Of a DNA stretch of 64,000 nucleotides, positions 1,094 through 22,571 are shown piece after piece. This stretch comes from Pezizomycotina sp. ARF18 (Eukaryota > Ascomycota). Numbering within the stretch: the stretch's first letter is position 1; each line of letters starts with the position of its first letter. The position numbers and the translations under genes are program-made. The stretch covers positions 62,001 to 126,000 of the forward strand of contig AZLU01000036.1 of the NCBI GenBank assembly GCA_002224055.1, written 5' to 3'. The notes under the pieces are model-generated. The model was given only the letters and a program-made list of their open reading frames with translations, did not search any database and was not told where the DNA came from.

Positions 1094-1710
1094 CTAAATT
1101 GACTTCCATTTCCATCCATTTCTTTCTTCTCCATTCACATTAAGATTGAAGAATGGCTCATCCTCGATGACGCCCGCGAGTGCCGTGCTTTCGATGGCTC
1201 GGTTTGGTGCATCACGGGATGCTTCGTCAAGAAAGCGTTCAAGGCAATAAAATAGATCGTGCTCGACGGTGTCAGAGATCTTTGAGAACACTGATTTTGG
1301 GGGTGGTTAACTCGGTTTAGTAAATGCTATAATAATTTGAAGAATATAATTTATTTTGAGGGAGAACAACGTCGCGAAAGAATGAACGGGTGGCATCGAA
1401 GATAGATAGCTAAAAAGTTAAGATGCGGAAAAGCACAGGGGTTGATGCGTAGTATACCTGATTCGTGAAGTCTGCTAAGTAATTCCATCGGAACAATCGA
1501 TCCAGAACTTTCGGCATCTGGGGAGGCGACGAGAGTTTCGCCCTCTGAGCCATCAATTTCAGGGCTTGACCTAGTAGAGTATTGAATAGATCCCTCGTCA
1601 GAGTTCGGAGAAGAAGCTATGTGCTCAGAATCTAAAGCAGACGTGATGCTCGTGCCTCGGTGGTATATGAGGCGATTTTCGATATTGGGATACTCTGCGT
1701 TGTCATCCAT
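1094..1710 (-). CDS. Two-exon small protein, family copy A (149 aa)
   Basis: Exon 1 is 1458-1710 (253 bp) starting at ATG (MDDNAEYPNIENRL). Intron 1291-1457 (167 bp) begins GTATAC after CAG and ends in CAG. Exon 2 is 1094-1290 (197 bp). The splice is phase 1 and joins to 450 bp, 149 residues plus stop, with no internal stop. Exon 1 encodes an acidic Ser/Glu-rich, probably disordered region. Exon 2 encodes YCLERFLDEASRDAPNRAIE, likely a short helix. No signal peptide or membrane segment is evident. The same intron position and an exon-2 motif (roughly L-x-R-F/Y-L-x-E, then N-R-x-I) recur in minus-strand copies at 4184-4554, 8975-9377 and 13898-14409. Function unknown; I do not recognise the family. 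The gene model is supported by the paralogues and by perfect phase. Confidence 0.65.
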
Positions 1711-4183
1711 AGCGAAAAGATTCTTTTGGGAGGAGCCAAATTATCTTGAAGATTAAGATTAAAAAAAAACCCAAGTTGGTTCACTCGGAGAATTCAGCAG
1801 TAGTATCTCGATATATAAAATATATATGACCAACCTAATACTCTACTCCGCTAAAGATGATATGAGAGTAAGAATGAAGACTATTTACCGGCACCGCGGG
1901 AGGATGGGGTTCATTGCTAAAATGTACAGCAGTTGTTTTTAATTTGCAAAGCCAGGCTTCAGCAATATATATAGGATCTCATGAGGGTATTCTCGGTAAC
2001 ATCGCGTGCTGCTTCTCTCTATCTTAGAAAAAAAAAAAAAAAAAAAAAAGGAATTACTGCGTAGACGTGCCCAAGCATCCCAGCGCTCTGCAAATAAAAT
2101 AAAGAGAAATCCTTGCAGTTGGCTGTAGCAGTGAGACTATCATGAGGGTACACATACTTCTTGTCTCTGCAGCCATATTTCCCCATGTCACCTAACTCGA
2201 GCTTTAATGACGGAAGGACCCCACTAAAATGAAGAACAGGAAGAGAATAATAGAAGATAAAGCAAAAACTCCAATATTTCAACGAAAAGAAACCCCCGAA
2301 CTAGTTCCTAGTTTACTGAATTGAAATATCAAACGAAAGATTTATATAGCTTGCATTCTTACGGAGTCATGGCTCCAGCACCTGCATTCTAATTAAGGTA
2401 CCGGTTTGTGTACTTATTACATGAACGAGAGGTCACAGTGAGAGCACTATGGATGGAGGGGTTCTTTGGGTACCGTGCACTTGTTTTTATTTTTTTATTT
2501 ATTCATTTATTTTTTTTTTCGGGTTGGCTTGCTGAGTGATGAAGCCAATGGTATCCCTCATGTATCGGTTTATAAGTCAATTGCCTTTGATGAATAAACT
2601 TTGTGGAGTGCCACCGCCTCCGCCATTTCTCCAGCCCCCTGCTTTATAAATCCCTCCGCAGCCATTCCCTTACTCGGCAAAGAGAATGGAAACAATGCTG
2701 CAGCTCTTTAAAAATTTTCTACGAGCCTTAGACACTCATAAAATGCCACCATGTTTTTGCAGACGTTAGGATGTTCAACTTTAACATGCAGTGACCACTC
2801 TCAATGCTTCTTTAAGCGCCCAAACCAGGAAAGTATTTCTTTATCGCGGGGAGTTTTCGAGGCTCTCTTTCTGAGCAAATGAAGCGGATCTTCACTTTTA
2901 ACTTATTTATCTACTTATCTACTTATCTATTTGTTTTTCTTTCTCTGGGTCTTTCGTCGGGGCTTGCCCGGAGATATAGAAGAACTAATAAAATGGCGCA
3001 ATGGCTTGGTATGCACAGATCTAGAAACGAAAACTATATTTTCTTTAAGTCGTACACGGCTTTGTATCGTCTTATAGGTTTATATTATTGCCAGGGTATT
3101 GTAGATGCATATCGGAGGTTTGCACCGACTAATAAATGGAAGGTTTATTTAGAGCAATTCCCCTAAAAGATATAGCAAATCGTACACAAAAGGATCAGGC
3201 TGAAGCGATAGAATAACGTATCGTATGGTCTGGCGAATAAGCATGCAAGCACCCCGGCTCGATGGATTTTCAAAAAGTTTTGAACTTGTAGACTTATTTA
3301 CTAGTATATATTTATTCTATAGTATTTTAAAATATCGACTATCTTATTTATGATCTTAGAATATAACCTTAAACACGCGTTTTCGGGTATTGAGCTTATT
3401 CGCCAGTTTTCAATGGATTTTTAGAAATAGGCACGCCTGCACGTTATTTGCTGCTAGCCTGTTCATTGCTATATTCCTATTTGCCAACCCTCGTTTCGAC
3501 GCCTGAGAATTGCGATGCCGACAGGGAACTTCCAAAAATTTTGGCGCGTTATTCCCGTGTGAAGATGCATTATTGTTTATAGGTAGGGTCAGGTTGGGAT
3601 TCCGATTAGATTCACAGCCTCTGGTTTGTTCGTTACTGGAGAAAAGGCCAAATTGACTGACCGCGGAGAGCAAAATATTCCAAGCACCGGATCGCACGTC
3701 CGGAGCGCTGCAAAACTCTACCGAAGGAGTCTGGAATAGGGTCATTGCCGCCGCTGCGGTCATATTATAAGAGCCGTTGTTGCCTTGAGCATTAGTTGCT
3801 ATAGTGATAGGAAGAATCTCGCATTTTTTAATTGCGTTTGTCATGGTTCTAGAGAGGTGGTTTCAACGATTGAATATGTCTCAAATATCGGAGACCTCTC
3901 TATAATCTTCACTACTTTAGAAAACCAAATAAACAACGGTATAATGCAAAAACGTATTCCGTGCTCATGAAGCAGAAGAATGCTAACCTATATGAAACTC
4001 ATACAACAAAGTCAAGAGGAAAAGCTAGAAAAGGGGGATCTGTGGAGAAAAGCAAGAAGCCTACGCGTCGAGAAAACTTCAAAAAGAGGTATTATCTCTG
4101 ACCTATACACTAATACAACGCTCTGTCTCTATATGAACACCTACAACCTATCGTCTACATTAACAATATTTCAAAAACCTGCA
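1711..4183. other. Intergenic stretch with weak ORFs only
   Basis: Contains a 20-nt A run at about 2030-2049 and T-rich patches near 2490-2520. The longest ORF is 3410-3844 on the minus strand (144 codons, Asn/Ala-rich, MTNAIKKCEILPITIATNAQ at its start). It has no recognisable domain, no shared intron and no motif of the two-exon family. A plus-strand ORF at 2879-3166 has a hydrophobic start but poor codon character. I support none of these as genes. Confidence 0.35.
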
Positions 4184-4554
4184 TTATTCGGTCGGGCAAT
4201 AGCTATTGAGATACATCATCGAGTTCGAGCTCAACATCAGTACTGTTGAAGTGAGGTAGAGGATCCTCTCAATAACGCGATTGGGTCCTTCGAATGATGC
4301 TTCTTCAAGATACCGATCGAGCATGAACGACGAAGCATGAGCGACTCCAAAATCCTTGTCTATTTAAGTCCCCAGTTATATCACGTATAAATTGTTAGAA
4401 CTTTAACGTATATCTCCTAAACAAGTGGAGGGAGAGATCAAGAAACTGAGAAACGAAGAAAAGAAAATCTCGTTAATGACAATAGTACCCGAACCGCTTC
4501 CTGAGGAAGTGTTTAAGACCTCGCTCCCAGCTCCGAGCTAGTCGCTATTGTCAT
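4184..4554 (-). pseudogene. Two-exon small protein, family copy D (decayed)
   Basis: Exon 2 is 4184-4359. After an AG acceptor at 4360-4361 it reads in phase 1 and contains FMLDRYLEEASFEGPNRVIE then RIL, the clearest match to the exon-2 motif of copies A (1094-1710) and C (13898-14409). Exon 1 probably starts at the ATG at 4554 (MTIATSSELGARS) but meets a stop after 13 codons. A neighbouring frame continues with a Ser/Gly-rich stretch (NTSSGSGSGTIVINEI). The expected GTATAC donor is not seen; a GATATACG at the right distance could be a mutated one. Exon 2 is therefore well supported by homology while exon 1 is broken. Function unknown. Confidence 0.5.
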
Positions 4555-5497
4555 GGATGTGTAAGGGAATTGTGTTGTTGATCAGGAGCTGAACTGAAAA
4601 TGGTACGCGCCGTTGAAACTCCCGGAAAATCTTGCCGAATATATTTCGAGGCTCGAATAGCTATTGAAGGTTGAACTTGGGGTTCGAACTCCATGTATAA
4701 TCGTTTGCCCATATTTACTTGTGATGGAGCCGTTTAACTTGTATAACGTTTACAATATATATTTCTGTAAGATACGAAAAAGGTCTATTAGAAAAGAAAC
4801 AAAAATTATTTCGAAGTAAATTAAAAGCAATAGAAAATCAAACTTGTATTATATCTTGATTGTGATATAATGTAGATTGTGATGCAGAGAAAGCTAGAGC
4901 TTTATCGAGTGAAACAGTTACCTGATATGAAACCCTTTCGTTAGACCAGCAGAAATTTTATTATTACGCAGCTAGATTACCAGACAACCAGGTAAGGATT
5001 TTTTTGAAAGTTAGAAGACATCAAGTCCCCGAGGACCGGATTTCAGTCTAATATATGACATTCCATATCGTGTCTTTTTAGTCTCCTCGGCAGCTCCAGC
5101 TCACGAGCTACCCGTCTGATACCCAGAGAGTCCTTGATAGCAAAAAAGGAGAAAAGTCTGGGGCCGTTTTTTGTTGCACAGTGCGGCGTGCTATGCTCAT
5201 TTTCCAATCTCGTAAGCCTACTTGGCTAATCTTCGGATCTGCGAGATTTGACTCGCGAGAGGATCCGCGGAAGCGGGTACGAGAGCCGTACAACAAATTT
5301 GATGACGCGACAAAGGGCCAATTCGTGCCTAAAACGGGAGAAGGATTCTTGATCGGATAGCCTATAGCCATTGCTCAGCACTAGCGTACAGTGTTGCCCC
5401 CCTCACGACTACGTTGTAATTGTTTTTTGTTTCTCCTGTTTCGTTTCATATAGATTTCTTGCACTTTGCATATGTAAATTTGCGTACATTAACCGAT
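4555..5497. other. Intergenic, 5' flank of the transposon
   Basis: An 87-codon minus-strand ORF (5108-5371) is basic and Ser/Arg-rich with no domain I recognise. The sequence keeps ordinary CpA/TpG content up to the transposon edge. The last five bases, 5493-5497 (CCGAT), are repeated just after the element at 7113-7117. Confidence 0.4.
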
Positions 5498-5555
5498 CAC
5501 GCGGTGGCCAAAAAAGTTACGCACTTTTAAAAATCCCAGCTTAGCGCTCACTATA
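5498..5555 (+). repeat. Left terminal inverted repeat
   Basis: Pairs with the reverse complement of 7054-7112 over almost its whole length. The few differences are mostly transitions plus one A in a homopolymer. Two of them (TTACGC here against TTGCGC, TTTTAAAA against TTTTGAAA) are TpG to TpA changes on this copy, in keeping with RIP. Confidence 0.9.
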
Positions 5556-7053
5556 CTATATAAAAATTATATATATAAAATTATATATATTAAAACCCTA
5601 TTATTATATTATTATAATTAATAACCTTTTATAGATGCTTAAGTATACTTAGAACCTATTTATTAATAGATTTCTATTATAAGCCGGCCTAATCTTTATT
5701 AATAGCTAATTTTAATAATTTAAGGTTAAAATACTTCCGCTTATATACCTCGACTTAGATTTTACTATATATTCTTAATAGGTAATAAATCCGGGCTATA
5801 CGGTATATAAATATATATTATAGCCTATTATTCCGTTTCTACTATACAACTATATTATTTACGCTATTATTCTTTTCTAATATAAAATTCTAATTATTAT
5901 ATAGCTATTTATCAACTACTAGCTCTAATATTTAATCGCGGTAGTATTTTAATATTATTTTACTATTTTTATTAGTTAATATATTATAATATATAAGATC
6001 TAATTTAAAATTCTAACCTACTACGGCCTATATATAAAATTTAAATATTAAATCGTTCTTATTATTATATACTTACATAGTATTTAAGACCGGGTTATAG
6101 TCCTAATTAAAATAAATTTCTAATAATTTTATTTATATATATTTTACTAGGTAAGTAAAATTATTTTAAACTATATATATAAGCCTTAGAGGTAGCGATA
6201 TATTTATAGTTATAGAATACTAATTTTTACTTAGCGAACCTTACTAAAATAAAGGTCTTTTTTAACTATATATATACCTCTAACCTAAACTTAAATACTA
6301 CTTTAATATCTTATATATAATTATTATAGTAGCGCTCCTTATATCTCCGTAATACGCGTACCTTATCCTTTAGTATATAGCTAAAGTAAAATTTATTACT
6401 AAAATAGATTTATTTCTAGTACTTTAGTATAGATAGGTATACTAGCTACTAATAGGCTAAAATTAGTCGCTTATACTATATATTATTAGGCTTTTACTAT
6501 TTTTAATAGGCTATATAATACCGTTAGTACCTTTTAGCTATATACTTTTATACTATATATATTAATATGCCTTTAATATAGGCCTTAAATACTAGCATAT
6601 TTTATATTAAATAATATACTTTTTAGCCTTCGTCTATAAGTAGTTCTTCTATTATATTAAGCTAGGCTTTTAATAGTTTATATAGCTTACCGTATCGATC
6701 TAAACGCATCGGGCTATTAGTAAATATTATACGTAATTATTTTTATTATATAAATACTAGTGCGTTACGTTAGCTTATATTTTTAATATAAACTAGTAAT
6801 AGTAACTAATTAGCTAGTATTATAGTCGCGTATAAATAGATAGTATTATAATGCGATAATATATTTTATTAAAAATATGGTTTTTTATAGAGTAGATTTA
6901 TAAGCGTATGTTAGTACTAGTTTTAAGAGAGGGACCTTAATATTTAATGAAGTAAAAGAGTGTATACGCCGGCTAGAGCGGCGGCTAGTTCGCCGGGCTA
7001 TTAAACGCGTTCTACGTACGATAGTATTAATAGTAGATATATTTTTTGTGTGG

Positions 7054-7112
7054 TATAGTGGGTGCTAAGCTGGGATTTTCAAAAGTGCGCAACTTTTTTT
7101 GGCCACCGCGTG
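7054..7112 (-). repeat. Right terminal inverted repeat
   Basis: Reverse complement begins CACGCGGTGGCC and ends AGCACCCACTATA, matching 5498-5555. It is followed directly by the second CCGAT at 7113-7117. Confidence 0.9.
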
Positions 7113-7641
7113 CCGATATACCCGGATTCTTCCGAGAACAGAAGCCCTTCTTTGAGCATGCTGAGGAGGAGTTTTATGAAATGGGCACGAGACCAAAATT
7201 CGAATTGAGACTGCATCGTGTCTATTTCACTATTGGTTTACACCAGACCTTAGTGTCGACATACTCGTAAGAATGTCTACTAGCTCGTGTAATTCCTTTG
7301 CCTTTTATACCTTGCTTAAGCAATCCTTTATTCTACCTCGCTAGTTGTCATTGTTCTGATATGAACACGAGAGATGTAAGCCAGACTCAGAGTCCTTCTT
7401 CCCTCCTTCCTATATTTCCCTAGCGCGTACTCGTTGGGGGAGATCTAGAAAGGAGAATGGATTATTGTTCGTTATCCACAGTTGCTAACATTAGTAAATG
7501 CTTTCAATTTATTCGCTGGGGAAGTTAACCGGAAACGACACTGGTGAATTACTTTGCTGGCGTCAGCTCCCCGGCTCCTCCTTCGATGCGTCCTTCAATC
7601 CAATACCAAAGTGATTGGCTTCCTACAGCCAGAATGTCTCG

Positions 7642-7998
7642 TCATCTGCCATCGCATTGCAGAACGTCGACTTCATACCAAATTCCTTTGCGGCTCTGGC
7701 ATACCCCGCGGTGTCGGCTATTTAATGTCAGTAGATATTCCCAAAGCGGATAGTTGAAATTCCAACGCACCAAAAAATCCCAGATGCTCGACACAAATGT
7801 ATCCAGGCGCCTCATAAGCCACCCTGCTGGTGATATTGTGGTATCGGACTCCTGAATACTCGCGGCAAACTTATCTGCTAGCCTATGGGCGATACCGAGA
7901 TGTGTGAATGCGTCTATAAGTGTGGATATCTCTTCAGCGATTGCTAGTGTCTTCTCAGATGCCGTTTTCGTCATAGTTTCTAGACACTTAACAAACAT
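7642..7998 (-). CDS. Hypothetical protein fragment
   Basis: The ORF starts at ATG 7998 (MFVKCLETMTKTASEKTLAI) and has protein-like composition, including an amphipathic N-terminal part and the Trp/Phe-rich segment VSSIWDFLVRWNFNYPLWEY near residues 78-97. After about residue 100 the frame used becomes Arg/Cys-rich, while a neighbouring frame continues with GYARAAKEFGMKSTFCNAMA. A frame change near 7700 is therefore likely. No family recognised. Flanking DNA (7118-7641 and 7999-8974) shows only short ORFs. Confidence 0.35.
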   Translation of the reverse strand: MFVKCLETMTKTASEKTLAIAEEISTLIDAFTHLGIAHRLADKFAASIQESDTTISPAGWLMRRLDTFVSSIWDFLVRWNFNYPLWEYLLTLNSRHRGVCQSRKGIWYEVDVLQCDGR

Positions 7999-8974
7999 CA
8001 AATGTCTAGTCTTGTTTGCGATGAGATAAAATTAATTGGGGTTTTGCAATGAAATTGTGGTCTGAAAGCTTTTATGTATTACCATTATGACTCTGTTCAT
8101 CAGAGTTTCTAATGAATACCAGCTTAAAAACTTTATAAAGATAATCGACCAAGAAACTGTATTTCTTCGTAAAGGATAGAGTTTATCCTAGAGCCAGTAT
8201 ATAGCCACGTGGAGACCTAGAACGACCGTGCACCATATCAATGGAAAAAATACTGTGCAACGATATCTAATCACACAGCATACAGGGCTCGCGTCAGCGA
8301 ACATAATATGTTACAGGAACAGGATGAAAATTTAGTCGCACATCAAAATATGTATACATTGGAAGAAAAAAGCTTTGAAAAATATATTCTAGGAAGTAAT
8401 AGCGTGCGATGTATATTAGCTGGAGACTTTCAATTTTGACATGAAGCATAGAAGACCTCGCAAAGCCTGATCAAGAATTATAAGCGGGCGGAAGGAAGTT
8501 TCCAATCCTAACGATACTCTCCAGGATGCTTGGTAGCAACTCTAATATTAAACGCAAGGGGAAAAAAAAAAAAGATGGGACGACTAGGGTGTCCCTGTAA
8601 ACTTTGTGTAACGTTGACGTGGGCGTGCTATCGGGCGTGCATTATTCAAATTCGCGAAACAGTTTAGGAAATTAGGAGATATAATATCTGAGAACTATTT
8701 ACTATGAGCCGGAATAGTATTAGCCAGTTATAATGCAGTATGAAAACCGCAATCGCGGGGATTTATCGTTTTGATAAGGCGAAATTTAAAGTAAGTACTT
8801 AAGTACAGGTAAACATCGCCTCTCCCGATCAGCCGGGAGTAGGAAGGTAATCATCTAAGAGATATAAATGCCCGAATACCAAGGGACTATCCGATATCAT
8901 TTAAGATTTGGAACTCGTAGCGAGCGGCTGGATAGTAAGGACCTGGTCCGTAAGAATTCTCTCCATCGCGCTAT

Positions 8975-9377
8975 TTATACCTTCGGGGACCTCTCTGCGA
9001 GAAAGCGGTTCAGGGCGTAGGATGGATCGTCCACGGTTGAAAAAACGTGCTTGGGGCCTAAAAACAGAATAAGTAGTTAACTTCAGCTATACTCATGGGA
9101 ATAACAGAGACGAGCAGTGAACATACTCGTGGCCCCAATCTCGGTTGGTTTAACGGTAGAAGCGCTGCTCCCGACGCTGGAAACGCCGGTAGGCGGCTGG
9201 GAATCGTAGTCTCCAAATTCAGATCGTGTCGAAGCAGCGTCGGACAGTGTTGTGGCGGTGATTTTCTCCGTCGCTAGTGATAACAGACTTATCACCTCCG
9301 TTTACTTCGTTATGAGGGATTTCACCGATGCCAGAGCTAGAAGGCGTCTCATTGACAAACTCGGCGTTGATAGCCAT
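8975..9377 (-). pseudogene. Two-exon small protein, family copy B (frameshifted)
   Basis: Exon 1 runs from ATG at 9377 (MAINAEFVNETPSSSGIGEI) to 9127. Intron 9058-9126 (69 bp) runs GTATGT...TTTTTAG. Exon 2 runs from 9057 to a stop at 8975. The splice is phase 1, as in copies A, C and D. Exon 2 begins SPKHVFSTVDDPSYALNRFL, aligning with the motif in the other copies. Exon 1 changes frame near 9295: the ATG frame stops while the downstream Ser/Thr-rich frame (TTLSDAASTRSEFGDYDSQP) is the one that joins exon 2. After AERSPK exon 2 reaches a stop, but another frame continues EVPEGINSAMERIL, matching copy D, so a second frame change is likely. Function unknown. Confidence 0.5.
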
Positions 9378-9493
9378 ATTTAGTTGTCCTTCGTAAGGGC
9401 CGAGGTAGCTATGATGCTGGTTTTGATTGTTAATACTAAACCGCCGCTCAGTAGGGGCTTTAAATGTCGGAGTTTCTGTCTGATACCCCTTAC

Positions 9494-9517
9494 TTATTAT
9501 TATTATTATTATTATTA
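9494..9517 (+). repeat. (TTA)8 microsatellite
   Basis: Eight perfect TTA units upstream of family copy B. The surrounding 9378-10302 holds no gene I can support. An A-rich patch with interspersed G lies at about 9847-9880. Confidence 0.95.
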
Positions 9518-10302
9518 GATCTCGATATAAAGATATAGTAGTAGGAGAAAATGCTGAACGGGATAAAAAAACGAATACGTACGTGTGTAAATTGGAAGAA
9601 TACCCTTGAATTTTTGTGAGGGAAAGGACTTTACTCGCTTATATATCGAGAAAATTATATCGACTGAAAATTTTTACAAACATAGTGGTTACTTTAAAAT
9701 CAGTTCAGCGAGTTAGACAGACCCAGTTGCCTTTGCGCGTTACTTTGAGGCTCACATTTAGCCCATCCGTATAGCGTCACGTACTGGTTCGTACTGGTTT
9801 CTCAGAGACTGGGTATCAGGCAAGCGCAACCAGGATGTCATTGTTGAAAAAAAAATGAAAAAAAAAGAAAAAAAAAGAAATTGGAGGGCTTTCTTATGGT
9901 TATAAAACGGCCTAGCATATATATCGCTAACGGCCTAGCGGTGCGGATGCTACCGCAATGGTTACACAAGATGACCTTCCCCTTTCAAGATGGGTAAATT
10001 ATTTATCGTGGTCATAGGGTTATCTTAAACACTTCATACGAATCGAATAATGCCGAATTATGACTAAAGGTATCGCATAGTAGACTGGTATTCTTTGTAC
10101 GAAGGGCACCACGGATGTGTTATAGAATAAAAAAGAAGGTCAAAAGGTCGAACCTTTACGCGCCGAATATACTAGCAAGCACAGGACTTGAGAGCTAGAG
10201 GCAATTAGCAAAATCGCTTTTCCACAAGCTACGAGAATAATCCAAGCCATAGTTTTGGTATCTACTAAAGCGGAGTTTTAGAATCTCAATTTCAATATTG
10301 CT

Positions 10303-10671
10303 TCATGGAGGTAAATGTACGCTTGGTTTGGATACAGAATCCAATCCACTGAGAACCATCTTATAATTATGCGTCTTTGCCGTTCCGCTACCCTTTGCGT
10401 TCTCTTGAACTGCGGTAGTAGTCGTCTCTTTGTTACTCTCTATCGTATTAGGGTGCTGCTTGCGCATGTGTTTTGTAAGATTATCACGACGCGTGAATTG
10501 CATGTTAAAGTTGAGAGATCCGCAAAGGAAAATTTTCTTCTGTTCCTCAGTCGCGTGCGTCACGCGCTCGTGCCTATTCCTGTTTTGCCGGTCCGTGAAC
10601 TCTCGACCACAGCGGCCTTTTCGGCAACGGAAACAAGAAGCGGAAGAGACGGTAACTTCTTTTGGATGCAC
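10303..10671 (-). pseudogene. C2H2 zinc-finger protein fragment
   Basis: The minus-strand frame encodes two linked C2H2-type fingers: FRCRKGRCGREFTDRQNRNR-HERVTH, then FLCGSLNFNMQFTRRDNLTK-HMRKQH. They are followed by a polar tail ending in VSKPSVHLPP. The first finger and linker (FTDRQNRNRHERVTHAT) are nearly identical to those at 20594-20974, so the two are paralogues. In the second finger the position of the second cysteine is Phe (TTT), whereas the 20.6 kb copy has FPCEFPDCDMRF, so this finger probably cannot hold zinc. No ATG starts the frame: it is open from a stop near 10700 and an ACTCAG just upstream could be a splice acceptor. No ankyrin-coding exon is visible upstream. Probably a displaced last exon. 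Confidence 0.6.
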
Positions 10672-12871
10672 GGTGGCGTGTTCATATCTGAGTATTTCTC
10701 TTTATTTTCCAAGTTGTCTTAGACGCCGTCAGGTTAGTTCCGAGGTTATAACAGAAAAACGGAGAAGAATGCAAAAATAGTTGTCCATACTACCAGAACG
10801 CTACAAATCAGTACCGCGAGGGATTTTTTTATCAATAAAACTTCAGGCAAACGGTCTCTATATTTAGAGGCTATTTAATACTACTGAAATACACGCGTCA
10901 TCTCGGTAAGTGAAGACCGGGATAAGGAAAAAGAAAGGAGAAGAGCAAAACCCTCGATCTCCGAGTAGACCGGGGTACGTGCGATTATGAAACGCCTTAA
11001 GTTCTTACCCTAAGATTTTTGAACATGTGCATCATACCAATGAAGACTTTTATTTCAATGTTACTATACCTAACTTTACCGTCTAAAGGTACCTCCCTAA
11101 CCAGCCAGGCGGAATGGACTTATCGAGGGTCCAGGAATCTATCCAATTCTCACGTGTTGGAAGTTTGGAGGGCGATATTTAGGGTATTAAAAAAGGAAAC
11201 CAATATATCAAAATTCCGGATTTATAAGAACGGAAAGGCGGGGGCGGAAAAAGGCGTCGGAGATGGGTTGCACTTTCTTCACATGTCTTCTGAAACATAA
11301 GGGGGCTGCGGTGCCGACTTGATAGTATAGTTAGGTGGCTATTGTTACGCCCTATAGCGATATTCCAAAATCCTATAGTGTCAACGAGCTGGCAACCAAA
11401 TTCATCCCTCATAATGACCGTTTCAGTCAAGCAGTTTGAAAATTTCATTAGGGAGAGAAAGATCGATATTATACCATATATTTGGTCCTGACATCAACGG
11501 CATTCTCCTCAAACATATAATCGCGTATTTGAAAACTTTGAAGACGGTAGTTTTCAGCCAGTCACATGGCGCCAGAGTGTGGACGGAGCATGAAAAGGTC
11601 CTTGGTTTCTAATTGCAACTCAACGGTTATTTGTGGGCCGAAATATCAAAGCGACTGGGCTGGCGGTAACGGAAGACTACAGTTTTGATCGAGACGCGTC
11701 GTCCTAGAGGTCATCTAGTTTTATTTATTCAGCTCCGTACTTTTATTAAAGTACTAAAAATCCCATTAATATTAGAATGATTTCTTGACGGACATAATTA
11801 TCTCAATAGGAGACATACTTCGTGGTTGACCTGTTGAATTACGTGACTCACACATACGGTGACTTGAACATCATATAATAACTACGATTTAAACGATAAA
11901 GCGAGACGGACAGAAAAAGAAAATAAGATGAAAATCAGGACTATTACGCGGTCGTGGAATGAGCGTAAGTGGGCTATCGGAACAAAAGTCTCACTTAGAC
12001 AGATTCGGACCGACCTTGGCAAGAACTGAGTGGCCCTCCTTTCCAAACTTCATGTAGCTGGAAAAATAAGTAGGTATTACTTTGGGAAAAGGAAAACAAA
12101 AAAGGGTTGCCCATCTCCAGAGGATAATTTCACGTTAGCCTCCTTCATACTCACCAGTATGCATGCTGATAACTATTAAGAGATGCCGTGCCTAAAATCG
12201 TAGTCACGCAAAATGATTGCCTTAAAGAACTTCGATGTGGAGGTAAAGCAGTAACAAGGGGTGATGTGAACCGGCATAAGCTAAGATTTATCATTAGGGA
12301 TCCTTATGTATCTAGCACGTATTACCGAAAATTGAGCTAGCCTTCTACCCAAGACGCAGCCCAGGAGTTTAAAGGACCAGAATAATATAAGCAAACTGTA
12401 AGAAGCAAGTTTAAACAAGTCAAACAAGCTGTCGTTCGTTCATTAACTATTGCTCGACAATATCGGAAACTAGCCTTTGCTGATAAGTGCGACGATGATA
12501 CTCCTACCTCCCCAGTCCAATATCAAAACCCCTTCTCACCGCCGTAGAGATGTATCCAGAGCAGACAAACCCATCTTGTTTTGTTTCGTTTTTCCTTCTC
12601 GAAATCACTCCTGCGTTTGTCAAGTAATTAATTTAATGGTCTTCGGAAGCGGTATGGTTGGTCGCTACTTTGAACCATTCAAATTCTTAGGAGGGGGCTA
12701 CCAGCCCATTTGTACATTACATCCAATTTGTCAAAGGGCGTTTCAGGGTCGGTGTAAGTTTATATAAACAGCTATTGGATTGCAGTACAGCGTCTCTAAA
12801 AGCTAGCATAGATAATCTAGCGATACTTCCCTCTTTCTACGTGTCGGAGACAAGTAGATGTTTTTTTTTTT
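10672..12871. other. Intergenic stretch, nothing recognised
   Basis: Short ORFs only (for example 11019-11300 plus, 12477-12767 plus) with no domain and no family resemblance. A T run lies at about 12860-12873. Confidence 0.4.
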
Positions 12872-13270
12872 TTAGACAGGATAATTGATGAAAGATGAAT
12901 GCCCTCCTATTGAAATGTCCGAAATCATATTTACCCCTCCCTCCCAACCGTATAGATTGACCAGAACTTTCAAGGCTGAGGAAGAACGACCTGGATATGT
13001 AGTAGCGGTAAGAGTCATAAAATAAATAGTGCTCTCTGCATGTCTTAGCTGTAATATCTCTAGATTATTAGCGAGGTTTCCTTTGTTTTCCTCATGTACC
13101 ACACGCGGATTACCATAGTGGAATGAACAAGGGGCTGGGGCTCCATCCTCACTGACCACGTCAGAAAACCCAAAACTCTTCTGTATTATTTTGAAAAGGT
13201 CGAAGGTTTTATAATATATAATGAAAAGTTTTAGTTTAGGGATATCTCCGATATCCGATATGTGCTTCAA
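12872..13270 (-). CDS. Hypothetical protein, 132 codons
   Basis: Single open frame beginning MKHISDIGDIPKLKLF. Its middle part (FGFSDVVSEDGAPAPCSFHY and LANNLEILQLRHAESTIYFM) has balanced protein-like composition, better than surrounding ORFs. No signal peptide, membrane segment or known domain is seen, and no splice sites are obvious. It may be an exon of a larger broken gene or chance. Confidence 0.3.
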   Translation of the reverse strand: MKHISDIGDIPKLKLFIIYYKTFDLFKIIQKSFGFSDVVSEDGAPAPCSFHYGNPRVVHEENKGNLANNLEILQLRHAESTIYFMTLTATTYPGRSSSALKVLVNLYGWEGGVNMISDISIGGHSSFINYPV

Positions 13271-13897
13271 AATAACCTAGTCATACTATTGCTGAAATTT
13301 TTATAAACGACGACTATAAACAACGGTGCTATTGTGCACATTGAAGTAGGAGTGGTACAGATTGGCTCATTTAATAGTGAGAAAGAAATAAAAGAGAGGA
13401 GGAACAAGCATGTCGCTGTTATTAATAAGGAATGTTATCCAAGCCATGACGTTCTACATAGGTCGGCAATCATTTTTTGCTCTGGTTTTACCTTTGAAAA
13501 GCTTGTAATTGAGCTTGTCTGGGGAAATCTGTAGAGTCATTTGTTCATTTTGAAGAAAATCCGACCAGTAACCGTTATAACATTATCTGACCAGTGCATA
13601 TATAGCTCCGCTCGTAATTTATAAGAATAAGTAACATGATATTTTGCTTCACCAGAATAACTTAAGGTATGAAACACATCGGTGTAGCAAAAATTTCAAG
13701 ACAAAGGGAAAGAGGATACAGCCATGATATCGAAGAACGAAAGGCATTTGTTTACTATTTTTATTTTAGATGAAACACGACAGGGCGGAAAACAAGAATA
13801 AAAATCACAGAAGCGAAGAAAAGATGTTCAAAGTAGTTCAAAGGAATCAAAATTCGTGAGTAGGGGAGAACGATGATGTTTAATGCATGGCTAGTAT

Positions 13898-14409
13898 TTA
13901 TTTCTTCTTCTGAGCAGTGTTGGCAAGGTCCCCGGAGGCCATGAATGTATGTGTTGCCTCACTTTCAATGTCAGCGGCGTCCCTAGTTCCTTTAGTCATA
14001 TATGATCCAAAAACTCGATTAGAGCTTTCCTTTGGGGTCTCGCTCTGAAACCGGCTCATGACGAACGAGGGCTGGAGGAGGGATGTCGTGGGAGCGTCTA
14101 GTCGTGCTACGTCGATACGATACCAAAGATCAATAAATACTCAGGTCTTTCAAAGCTAGGCTTGAAGGGTGGGTTATGTATACCTGACGCTTGGAGGTCA
14201 TCACCATTCGATGAATATGCTCTGTATTCCGGACCAGATACCTGAGGGGTTGTACTCCAGTGGCTCATCTGCGAAGCCTTCGAGTGAGACGCATTTGAAG
14301 GGCACGAAATCTCTCCATTTGAAGGCTGACGCGGGAGCGATGTAGATTTAGGTAGCGATTTCTCTCCAGTGCCCTGCTCTGGATGAAGCAAACTCTTGGG
14401 TGCAGACAT
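13898..14409 (-). CDS. Two-exon small protein, family copy C (144 aa)
   Basis: Exon 1 is 14184-14409 (226 bp) from ATG (MSAPKSLLHPEQGTGEKSLP). Intron 14107-14183 (77 bp) starts GTATAC after TCAG, the same donor context as copy A, and ends in TAG. Exon 2 is 13898-14106 (209 bp). The phase-1 join gives 435 bp, 144 residues plus TAA, with no internal stop. Exon 1 is Ser/Pro-rich and probably disordered. Exon 2 carries PSFVMSRFQSETPKESSNRV, aligning residue by residue with copy D (SSFMLDRYLEEASFEGPNRV), and ends in Gln-Lys-Lys-Lys. No signal peptide. Function unknown. The intact frame across a spliced intron, with three paralogues, makes this a good gene call. Confidence 0.68.
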
Positions 14410-20593: not shown

Positions 20594-22571
20594 TCAGGTA
20601 GTCGCACACCGGTATTCCCGCCACCAGTTTTGTGTTAAGGAGACCCCTTTGCGTTTCCCAAGTATCCCTGTGAGTAAAATCACGATGCTTATTACGGACA
20701 TGTTTTGTAAGTTATCTCGGCGTGTAAACCGCATGTCGCAATCAGGGAACTCGCAGGGAAACGTCTTCTTCTGATCATCCGTCGCGTGCGTCACGCGCTC
20801 ATGTCTATTCCTATTTTGTCTGTCCGTGAACCTGTGCGTGCAGCCTTTCCTGCAGTAGAAGACAGAGTTTGATGATGGCGATAATGTCCTTGACACAGCT
20901 TTATGGGATGGCTGAGTAGGTGAAGGCGCGGGCGACAAGGATTTGTTTGTGGGCGGCTTTGGTGGACCGTCCATGGCTCTAGCCCCGTAGAAAGCTCCAT
21001 GCGTGAAACTGGATCCCTCAGATACCGAAGTCTTTCTGAGGAATCAAGTATCTCTGGCGTGTTACCGTCATTGGGCAGCGCGTCGAACCCGTCAATCCAG
21101 TCCGGCCCAATATCGGGCACGATATCTAATTCGCTGAGTTTGCTTCCCACCGATGCAGCCGATGGAAAATCGTCATTGAGGTTTGTAGCAGCATTGGGGT
21201 CCGCTCCATGCCTGAGCAAATGTAGTATAGCGTCTTGATTACTCGATATCGTCGCGAGGTGCAGTGGGGTTTGTCCTCTACCATCTTGAGATTTGGATCT
21301 GCGCCATGGTTTAACAAATCCTCCATGATAGAGATATTTCCTCGGATTATTGCCGCGTGAAGTGCGTTGTATCCGTTGTTATTCAAAGTGCTTGTATCGG
21401 CGCCAAAATTTAACAATACTTGAACGCAGTCCCTCATGTCGCGATACACGGCATAGTGCAATGGTGTTGATCCACGGTCGTCCATAATATCAATTCCGGA
21501 CGAGTCGCGCTTCAGTAAACGGTGAAGAAGCAAGGAGTAATTCGATTTAGCTACGAGATGTAGAAGCGTTCGACCATTCATAGCCTGTCGTTAACCCTTG
21601 CTTGGTAGTCTAGAAGGACTTCCATCATTTTCTCGACGCGCGAGTAGATCCAGCTTCCCCCGGTTTGGGTATATGTAAACAACGCTTTAACACATACTTG
21701 CAAGGGGGTTAAATGTTCTGCCTGACCGGTAACGTTTCCGGAAGCCGCACGGTCTTCATAACTTTCTCTGCCTACTCCTGCAGAATATATAGCAACGTCG
21801 TTTACTGAAGCGGCCTGCTCCAACAACGCCCTTGCTACCGGGAAATTAAGCCTGTCCGTTGCTACATGAGCGGTGTCCAACCAAAGCATCTTTCAAGCTT
21901 AGAAGCCGGGTTCTCGCAGACACAACTCTTCGATAAGGCTTTGGTGGTCGTAAGCAATAGCTATATGCAATGCAGTTTTGCCAGATAGCGTTGGAGCACA
22001 GATATCGGCGCGGCATTAAAGAGCAGCCGAAATATTTTGATATTCCCTACCCTCGCCGCAACGTGTAAGGGCATCCAACCATCACAATCTCTGATGGATA
22101 AATCGATTTTGCCTTTGAAAGCTACAAGGTCCTCGACTAGAACCACGAAGCCATTTTCAATGGCAAGATGGAGCGCTGTTCTATGCTGTTTCCGTCGTAG
22201 CGTTTATATCAACTTGCCCTGATCTTAGATATACACTAACAAGCTCTGGAGAACCCTGAAGTGCTGCAAGGTGTATAGGCTTTAATCTCGTATTTGATAT
22301 GGGTTCCTTTCGCAGATGAATGGAGGAATACGATATAGACTGCGCACTTCTGATTGAAACTTTTGAGGGAAGTCATCTCCCTCGCTTTTAGAAGAGATTG
22401 GGGAGCTATTTCGCTTAGATTGTCTGCCTGAGCTTCTAGACTTGCAACGAAGCAGGAGACTGCGTCTCCATGATAAGCGGCGAGGTTCCCGGAGAGCCTG
22501 AGAGCGAGAAGGTGCAGTTCTTGGCCGGCGTTCAAACAGATCCTATTCGTAACAAGCTTAATACGGGACAA
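20594..22571 (-). pseudogene. Ankyrin-repeat protein with C-terminal C2H2 fingers, broken
   Basis: Read 22571 to 20594, successive frames encode ankyrin repeats (DGWMPLHVAARVGNIKIFRL; MNGRTLLHLVAKSNYSLLLH; GSTPLHYAVYRDMRDCVQVL; GYNALHAAIIRGNISIMEDL), then a Pro/Ser linker (SLSPAPSPTQPSHKAVSRTL) and two C2H2 fingers (FYCRKGCTHRFTDRQNRNRH; FPCEFPDCDMRFTRRDNL then KHVRNKH). The layout resembles fungal ankyrin proteins that end in C2H2 fingers, often related to STAND proteins. The coding frame shifts at least four times (near 22300, 21960-21580, 21290, 20970 and inside finger 2 near 20710). No start codon or N-terminal domain is visible upstream, so the 5' part is missing. The fingers are paralogous to 10303-10671. 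Role, if any, would be regulatory or recognition; not functional as it stands. Confidence 0.7.

Follow-up and report, generated by a model that had tools for sequence, protein, structure and literature searches.

We report on a small gene family of the fungus Pezizomycotina sp. ARF18, which came to notice in a stretch of 64,000 nucleotides of contig AZLU01000036.1 (hereafter C36; positions 62,001 to 126,000, the window). Four minus-strand loci in the window, copies A to D, had been proposed from the DNA letters to be two-exon genes with a Ser-rich first exon and a common motif in the second. With moderate confidence, we assign the loci to a single small family of protein-coding genes in ARF18, with about nine copies in the regions that were read. 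The small clustered gene family is real, and it is larger and less clearly broken than the original prediction held; it is of a familiar kind and fairly ordinary among small fungal genes. Computation supports homology among the second exons of seven loci, splice sites that suit phase 1 at seven of the nine, purifying selection acting on the second exon of a single pair, and pervasive small indels in the assembly.

Copies, second exon and intron

Whole-genome protein searches of the assembly (46.36 Mb, 408 contigs) were performed with exon 2 of copies A, B, F and H, and local profiles were run over the regions read, a set of 213 kb containing 156 of the 262 kb of C36 (the window is C36:62001-126000) and 57 of the 583 kb of contig C4. 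Sequences were present at all four proposed loci (A, 1094-1710; B, 4184-4554; C, 8975-9377; D, 13898-14409), and five extra loci, copies E to I, were recovered (Table 1). The family therefore exceeds the four members proposed, with about nine loci found. The copies form two groups, one on C36 and one at the end of C4, where F, G, H and I lie within the final 12 kb of the 583,001-base contig. With A as the query, matches were obtained at C4:579626 (E 0.0025) and C4:571248 (E 0.0043). Copy H matched F (2.9e-12), B (3.1e-4) and A (5.3e-4); copy F matched H (2.6e-12), B (2.1e-4), G (5.3e-4) and A (6.7e-4); and copy B matched H (3.7e-4) and F (4.6e-4).

A leave-one-out hidden Markov model (HMM) search of the 7086 frames of the 213-kb set recovered copies A (4e-13), B (9.5e-11), F (5.8e-22), G (6.8e-11), H (1.2e-18) and I (4e-4, with a second frame at 6.6e-4), while copy E, which was in no profile, was found at E 2.3e-4 with all rows in. 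The profile test thus supports seven loci (A, B, E, F, G, H and I). Taken together, the genome searches and profiles support the proposed two-exon family with a better conserved second exon, and extend it beyond the window. In copies A to D the segment following the intron reads RF or RY and then acidic residues, with NR present in A, B and D. At C4:565680-565745, a short frame containing MIARFYEERDR gave E 0.03-0.7 against the family profile and is perhaps another remnant. Three telomeric TTAGGG units, used as a query, were unmatched in a search that skips simple repeats and thus says little on whether the C4 end is subtelomeric.

Splice sites were picked by hand. At the sites proposed, the intron is in phase 1 at both ends in seven of the nine loci (A, B, C, D, G, H and I), and in six of these seven Ser directly precedes the split codon. 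The predicted phase-1 intron at a fixed place could be read in all four window loci, as had been claimed on sequence grounds, and now extends to most of the family. Two details of the original prediction stood in part. The donor GTATAC, ascribed to A and C, is present in A, whereas that of C is GTATGT and the other GTATAC donor belongs to D. The whole reading frames of 149 and 144 amino acids (aa) were confirmed for A at 149 aa; D reads as 141 aa, and as 144 aa only with an acceptor 9 nucleotides (nt) upstream.

Table 1. Features of the copies. Positions of A to D are those of the window; C36 and C4 denote contig positions. Introns are proposed.
Feature	Position	Strand	Details
Copy A exon 1	1458..1710	minus	84 aa plus one base; Ser 20%, Asp+Glu 19%
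Copy A intron	1291..1457	minus	167 nt, phase 1, GTATAC...CAG
Copy A exon 2	1094..1290	minus	VFSKISDTVEHDLFYCLERFLDEASRDAPNRAIE, then tail FFNLNVNGEE
Copy B exon 1	4489..4554	minus	In this assembly, start codon out of frame with the end of exon 1 that meets the intron
Copy B intron	4360..4488	minus	129 nt, phase 1, donor GTACTA
Copy B exon 2	4184..4359	minus	FMLDRYLEEASFEGPNRVIE
Copy B acidic tail	4203..4238	minus	DVELELDDVSQ and stop; frame differs from that of the RY motif
Copy C (probable) exon 1	9127..9377	minus	One frame change; SSASTVKPTE before intron
Copy C (probable) intron	9058..9126	minus	69 nt, phase 1, GTATGT...TAG
Copy C (probable) exon 2	8975..9057	minus	YALNRFLAE, then stop soon; no NR segment; alone not significant
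Copy D (probable) exon 1	14184..14409	minus	75 aa plus one base; Ser 23%
Copy D (probable) intron	14098..14183	minus	86 nt, phase 1, GTATAC...TAG; alternative acceptor 9 nt upstream
Copy D (probable) exon 2	13898..14097	minus	FVMSRFQSETPKESSNRVFG; alone not significant
Copy E exon 2	C36:25558-25742		37 kb from the window group, same contig; genome searches and local profiles
Copy F	C4:571242-571363		Genome searches and local profiles
Copy G	C4 from 576654	plus	Genome searches and local profiles
Copy H	C4 from 579627	plus	Genome searches and local profiles
Copy I	C4 from 581579	minus	Genome searches and local profiles

Frame breaks and selection

When their motifs are read together, copies B, C, E, F, G, H and I show frame changes, and the second exon of copy C is short. 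Such features would be expected if an older family were decaying into pseudogenes, the last whole copies being A and perhaps D, and the original prediction had described two copies as broken and spoken of birth-and-death evolution. However, breaks of this kind also occur in conserved genes of the assembly. Pieces of HSP70 genes change frame with fewer than 40 nt between them six times on contig C49, twice on C208, four times on C70 and three times on C303, and SEY1 on C4 has one frame change, giving 16 over 7.8 kb with no room for an intron. This tally used 27 of 38 HSP70 matches, excluding an overlapping piece from C70, another from C208 and every match on C3 (six), C44 (two) and C10 (one); a piece of the C49 gene was matched best by a mitochondrial HSP70. 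The rate of frame change in conserved genes is therefore no less than one per about 490 bp, so that a copy free of decay would be expected to carry roughly one break. Consequently, the two copies described as broken are no evidence for birth-and-death, a claim that is not supported here, and the apparent breaks are probably explained largely by assembly errors. The first hint of small indels was that only nine start-to-stop frames of 150 aa or more are present in the 64-kb window. Small indels are described as a cause of frameshifts in nanopore assemblies of fungi, becoming fewer with coverage, in one study (PMC9453082). Pseudogene claims drawn from this assembly need checking, and those of broken copies and birth-and-death would best await corrected sequence.

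Substitution patterns point the same way. Over 35 codons of exon 2, copies F and H differ with a nonsynonymous rate (dN) of 0.135 and a synonymous rate (dS) of 0.881, a dN/dS of about 0.15, which argues against decay; in the remaining five exon-2 pairs synonymous change is saturated. Third codon positions differ most in all six pairs. The F-H ratio and the third-position excess together fit a translated segment under purifying selection, with F-H as the one usable pair. The description of these genes as fast-evolving was accordingly only partly right, with exon 2 being under purifying selection in the sole pair that could be measured. We consider pseudogene decay an unlikely account of the copies and favour a family of protein-coding genes.

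Membership of the divergent copies

Several observations weigh against treating all nine loci as one family of uniform build. Exon 2 of D, E and I, used as genome queries, returned only self-matches, so that divergent members may be missed, and exon 1 of A found itself and one match at E 2.6. The acceptor of copy F fits, but its exon-1 frame with the ST..PTE motif misses phase 1. For copy E no in-frame donor was found, the proposed donor lying outside any open exon-1 frame, and in copy G the RF motif and the sequence following the acceptor are in different frames. Two acidic-tail patterns, composed after the copies had been viewed, occur downstream in six of nine loci (A, B, E, G, H and I), against backgrounds of 0.3% and 0.6% of 20,000 random 150-nt windows; they are unmet in C, D and F, of which F has a similar stretch by eye and C and D have none. 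The frame of the tail, counted from that of the RF motif, is 0 in A and E, 1 in G (and, by eye, in F) and 2 in B, H and I. As the shift differs among copies, we consider a programmed frameshift ahead of the tail unlikely. An amphipathic helix was likewise unsupported, with only two of eight segments beating shuffles at p<0.05.

The same caution applies to copies C and D. The second-exon motif said to be common to the window loci holds for A and B in the leave-one-out test, whereas exon 2 by itself gives no significant score for C or D (E above 0.5). Exon 2 of D gave E 0.6-3.6 where listed and fell outside the top 14 in one of seven runs, that of C gave 1.1-2.5 and fell outside in two of seven, and two frames that we do not count as members outrank both in most profile runs. 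By matrix score, C (15.2) lies below all ten maxima of random sequences of the same length (15.4-21.8) and D reaches 21.7, both with a phase-1 acceptor; two frames not counted in the family and lacking an acceptor scored 24.4 (window 38434, minus strand), above D, and 15.9 (C4:565706). The pattern ST-x(1,2)-P[TM]E, also composed after viewing the copies, has three occurrences over all six reading frames of the 213 kb, each of them before the intron, in C, F and H (three of nine loci). The best support for C is this pre-intron motif, SSASTVKPTE, and the membership of D rests on intron phase, donor, the Ser-rich first exon, its place and strand in the group, and RF...NR. Both are rated probable because of intron phase, position and, for C, the exon-1 motif.

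Neighbourhood, possible function and known systems

The RIP-mutated (repeat-induced point mutation) transposon reported to adjoin the window loci is real and RIP-like, with a GC fraction of 0.244 and a TA/AT ratio of 1.47 over 5520-7110; the four loci do not share its composition. The transposon-like element spans 5510-7099, with inverted ends of 66 nt (5510-5575 and 7034-7099) that are 86% complementary, and these ends are reminiscent of fungal Tc1-mariner elements. C2H2 zinc-finger pieces lie at 10306-10701 (above the Pfam cut-off) and 20597-21043 (below it), the second beside ankyrin-like frames at 21129-22203, with related frames near copy E at C36:28.9-31.7 kb. By eye, the window starts with a P450-like end; this, the C2H2 and ankyrin frames, the short introns and the transposon are in keeping with a fungal origin. 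Between 52172 and 63310, several mutually similar frames occur along 10 kb, on either strand, and have segments such as GQYPGLRAATTPQ in common. Outside the window, at C36:134412-139109, three related frames carry Cys pairs and motifs akin to PLGCC or PLGFC, and one of them has a signal-like start. A second gene family at C36:13.7-23 kb was rejected; the repeated frames there look like DNA repeats with many stops.

Database searches yielded no relatives of the family. No Pfam-A family matched the A protein, exon 2 of H or the D protein at E 1 or better, and Rfam gave no match at gathering scores. Against the protein database, A produced 38 candidates, none at E<=1, and the alignment A6 produced 822, none at E<=10. 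A control fungal protein also found no relative there; this was a complete 184-aa frame of the window (35345-35896), with a signal-peptide-like start by eye and no Pfam match at E 0.01, for which none of 168 candidates reached E<=0.001. Absences in that database therefore carry little weight, also for the view that the genes are lineage-specific. None of 57 pattern matches in bacterial and archaeal contigs and 31 in viral contigs was confirmed, and plasmids searched with the DNA of A gave no match. No description of the family was found in Pfam, by motif strings, or in the literature on such families as judged by titles and the starts of abstracts.

The structural model of exon 2 of A, built from three window rows with the first residue read as Met, contains one helix (residues 5-27) at low confidence (mean pLDDT, the predicted local distance difference test, 55). 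The starts of F and H are alike (M[DN][ST]K.QH), and no signal peptide was seen in the starts by eye, without a prediction program and with indels that may shift starts. Our best guess at the function, an inference, is a small intracellular adaptor or regulator whose first half is disordered. Each gene would give rise to an intracellular, mostly disordered protein some 110-150 residues long that lacks a signal peptide, has one short helix predicted across the RF segment and often ends in acidic residues. Such a protein might grip a partner through the RF..EEAS..GPNR segment while its first exon drifts; copy number was probably raised by local duplication, and most frame breaks are probably assembly errors. 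A more specific proposal is decidedly speculative, namely that selection holds RF..EEAS..GPNR and the acidic end of these small, clustered intracellular proteins and the rest drifts, as might occur in self/non-self or regulatory proteins that diversify by way of a disordered exon attached at a phase-1 intron of fixed place.

Small, grouped and divergent genes near a RIP-like transposon could also be effectors that act in a host and leave the cell with no classical signal peptide. Families of candidate secreted effector proteins (CSEPs) of Blumeria are likewise reported to have a fixed intron position (PMC3582587). An effector role seems improbable for the ARF18 proteins, whose starts show no signal peptide by eye. 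A role as partners of fungal allorecognition receptors, sharing a short signalling motif with the receptor, is still harder to sustain: ankyrin and C2H2 frames do lie near both C36 groups, with copy E 3 kb from a long ankyrin frame, but the exon-2 motif was found at family loci only in the genome searches with A, H, F and B, which divergent forms could escape, and a comparison of C36 with the C4 end revealed no ankyrin frame common to the two. Least probable is a chance collection of unrelated short frames picked by eye, which would suit C and D, each within background when taken alone, but is refuted for A and B by the C4 copies that match them in genome searches and by the profiles that omit them.

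Returning to a small intracellular family as the preferred reading, its closest parallel among the systems considered is partial. The Blumeria CSEP families with a ribonuclease-like domain resemble it in having divergent, duplicated paralogues, and in ten of them the intron between exons 1 and 2 is at the same relative position (PMC3582587). CSEPs are candidate secreted proteins related to ribonucleases, whereas for the ARF18 family no signal peptide was seen by eye, three proteins gave no Pfam match, and the one model is a low-confidence single helix. If our reading is correct, a small family with a measurable conserved core joins the many fungal genes that are unnamed in the libraries searched. 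It also illustrates that frame breaks in an error-rich assembly can mimic birth-and-death, and that a few housekeeping genes of the same assembly warn against such a reading. Small clustered fungal families without named domains commonly have few local copies, a disordered-looking first half, a short conserved core and no database match. The ARF18 family is alike in all of these traits, and its own marks are the fixed phase-1 intron (7/9) and the acidic end (6/9).

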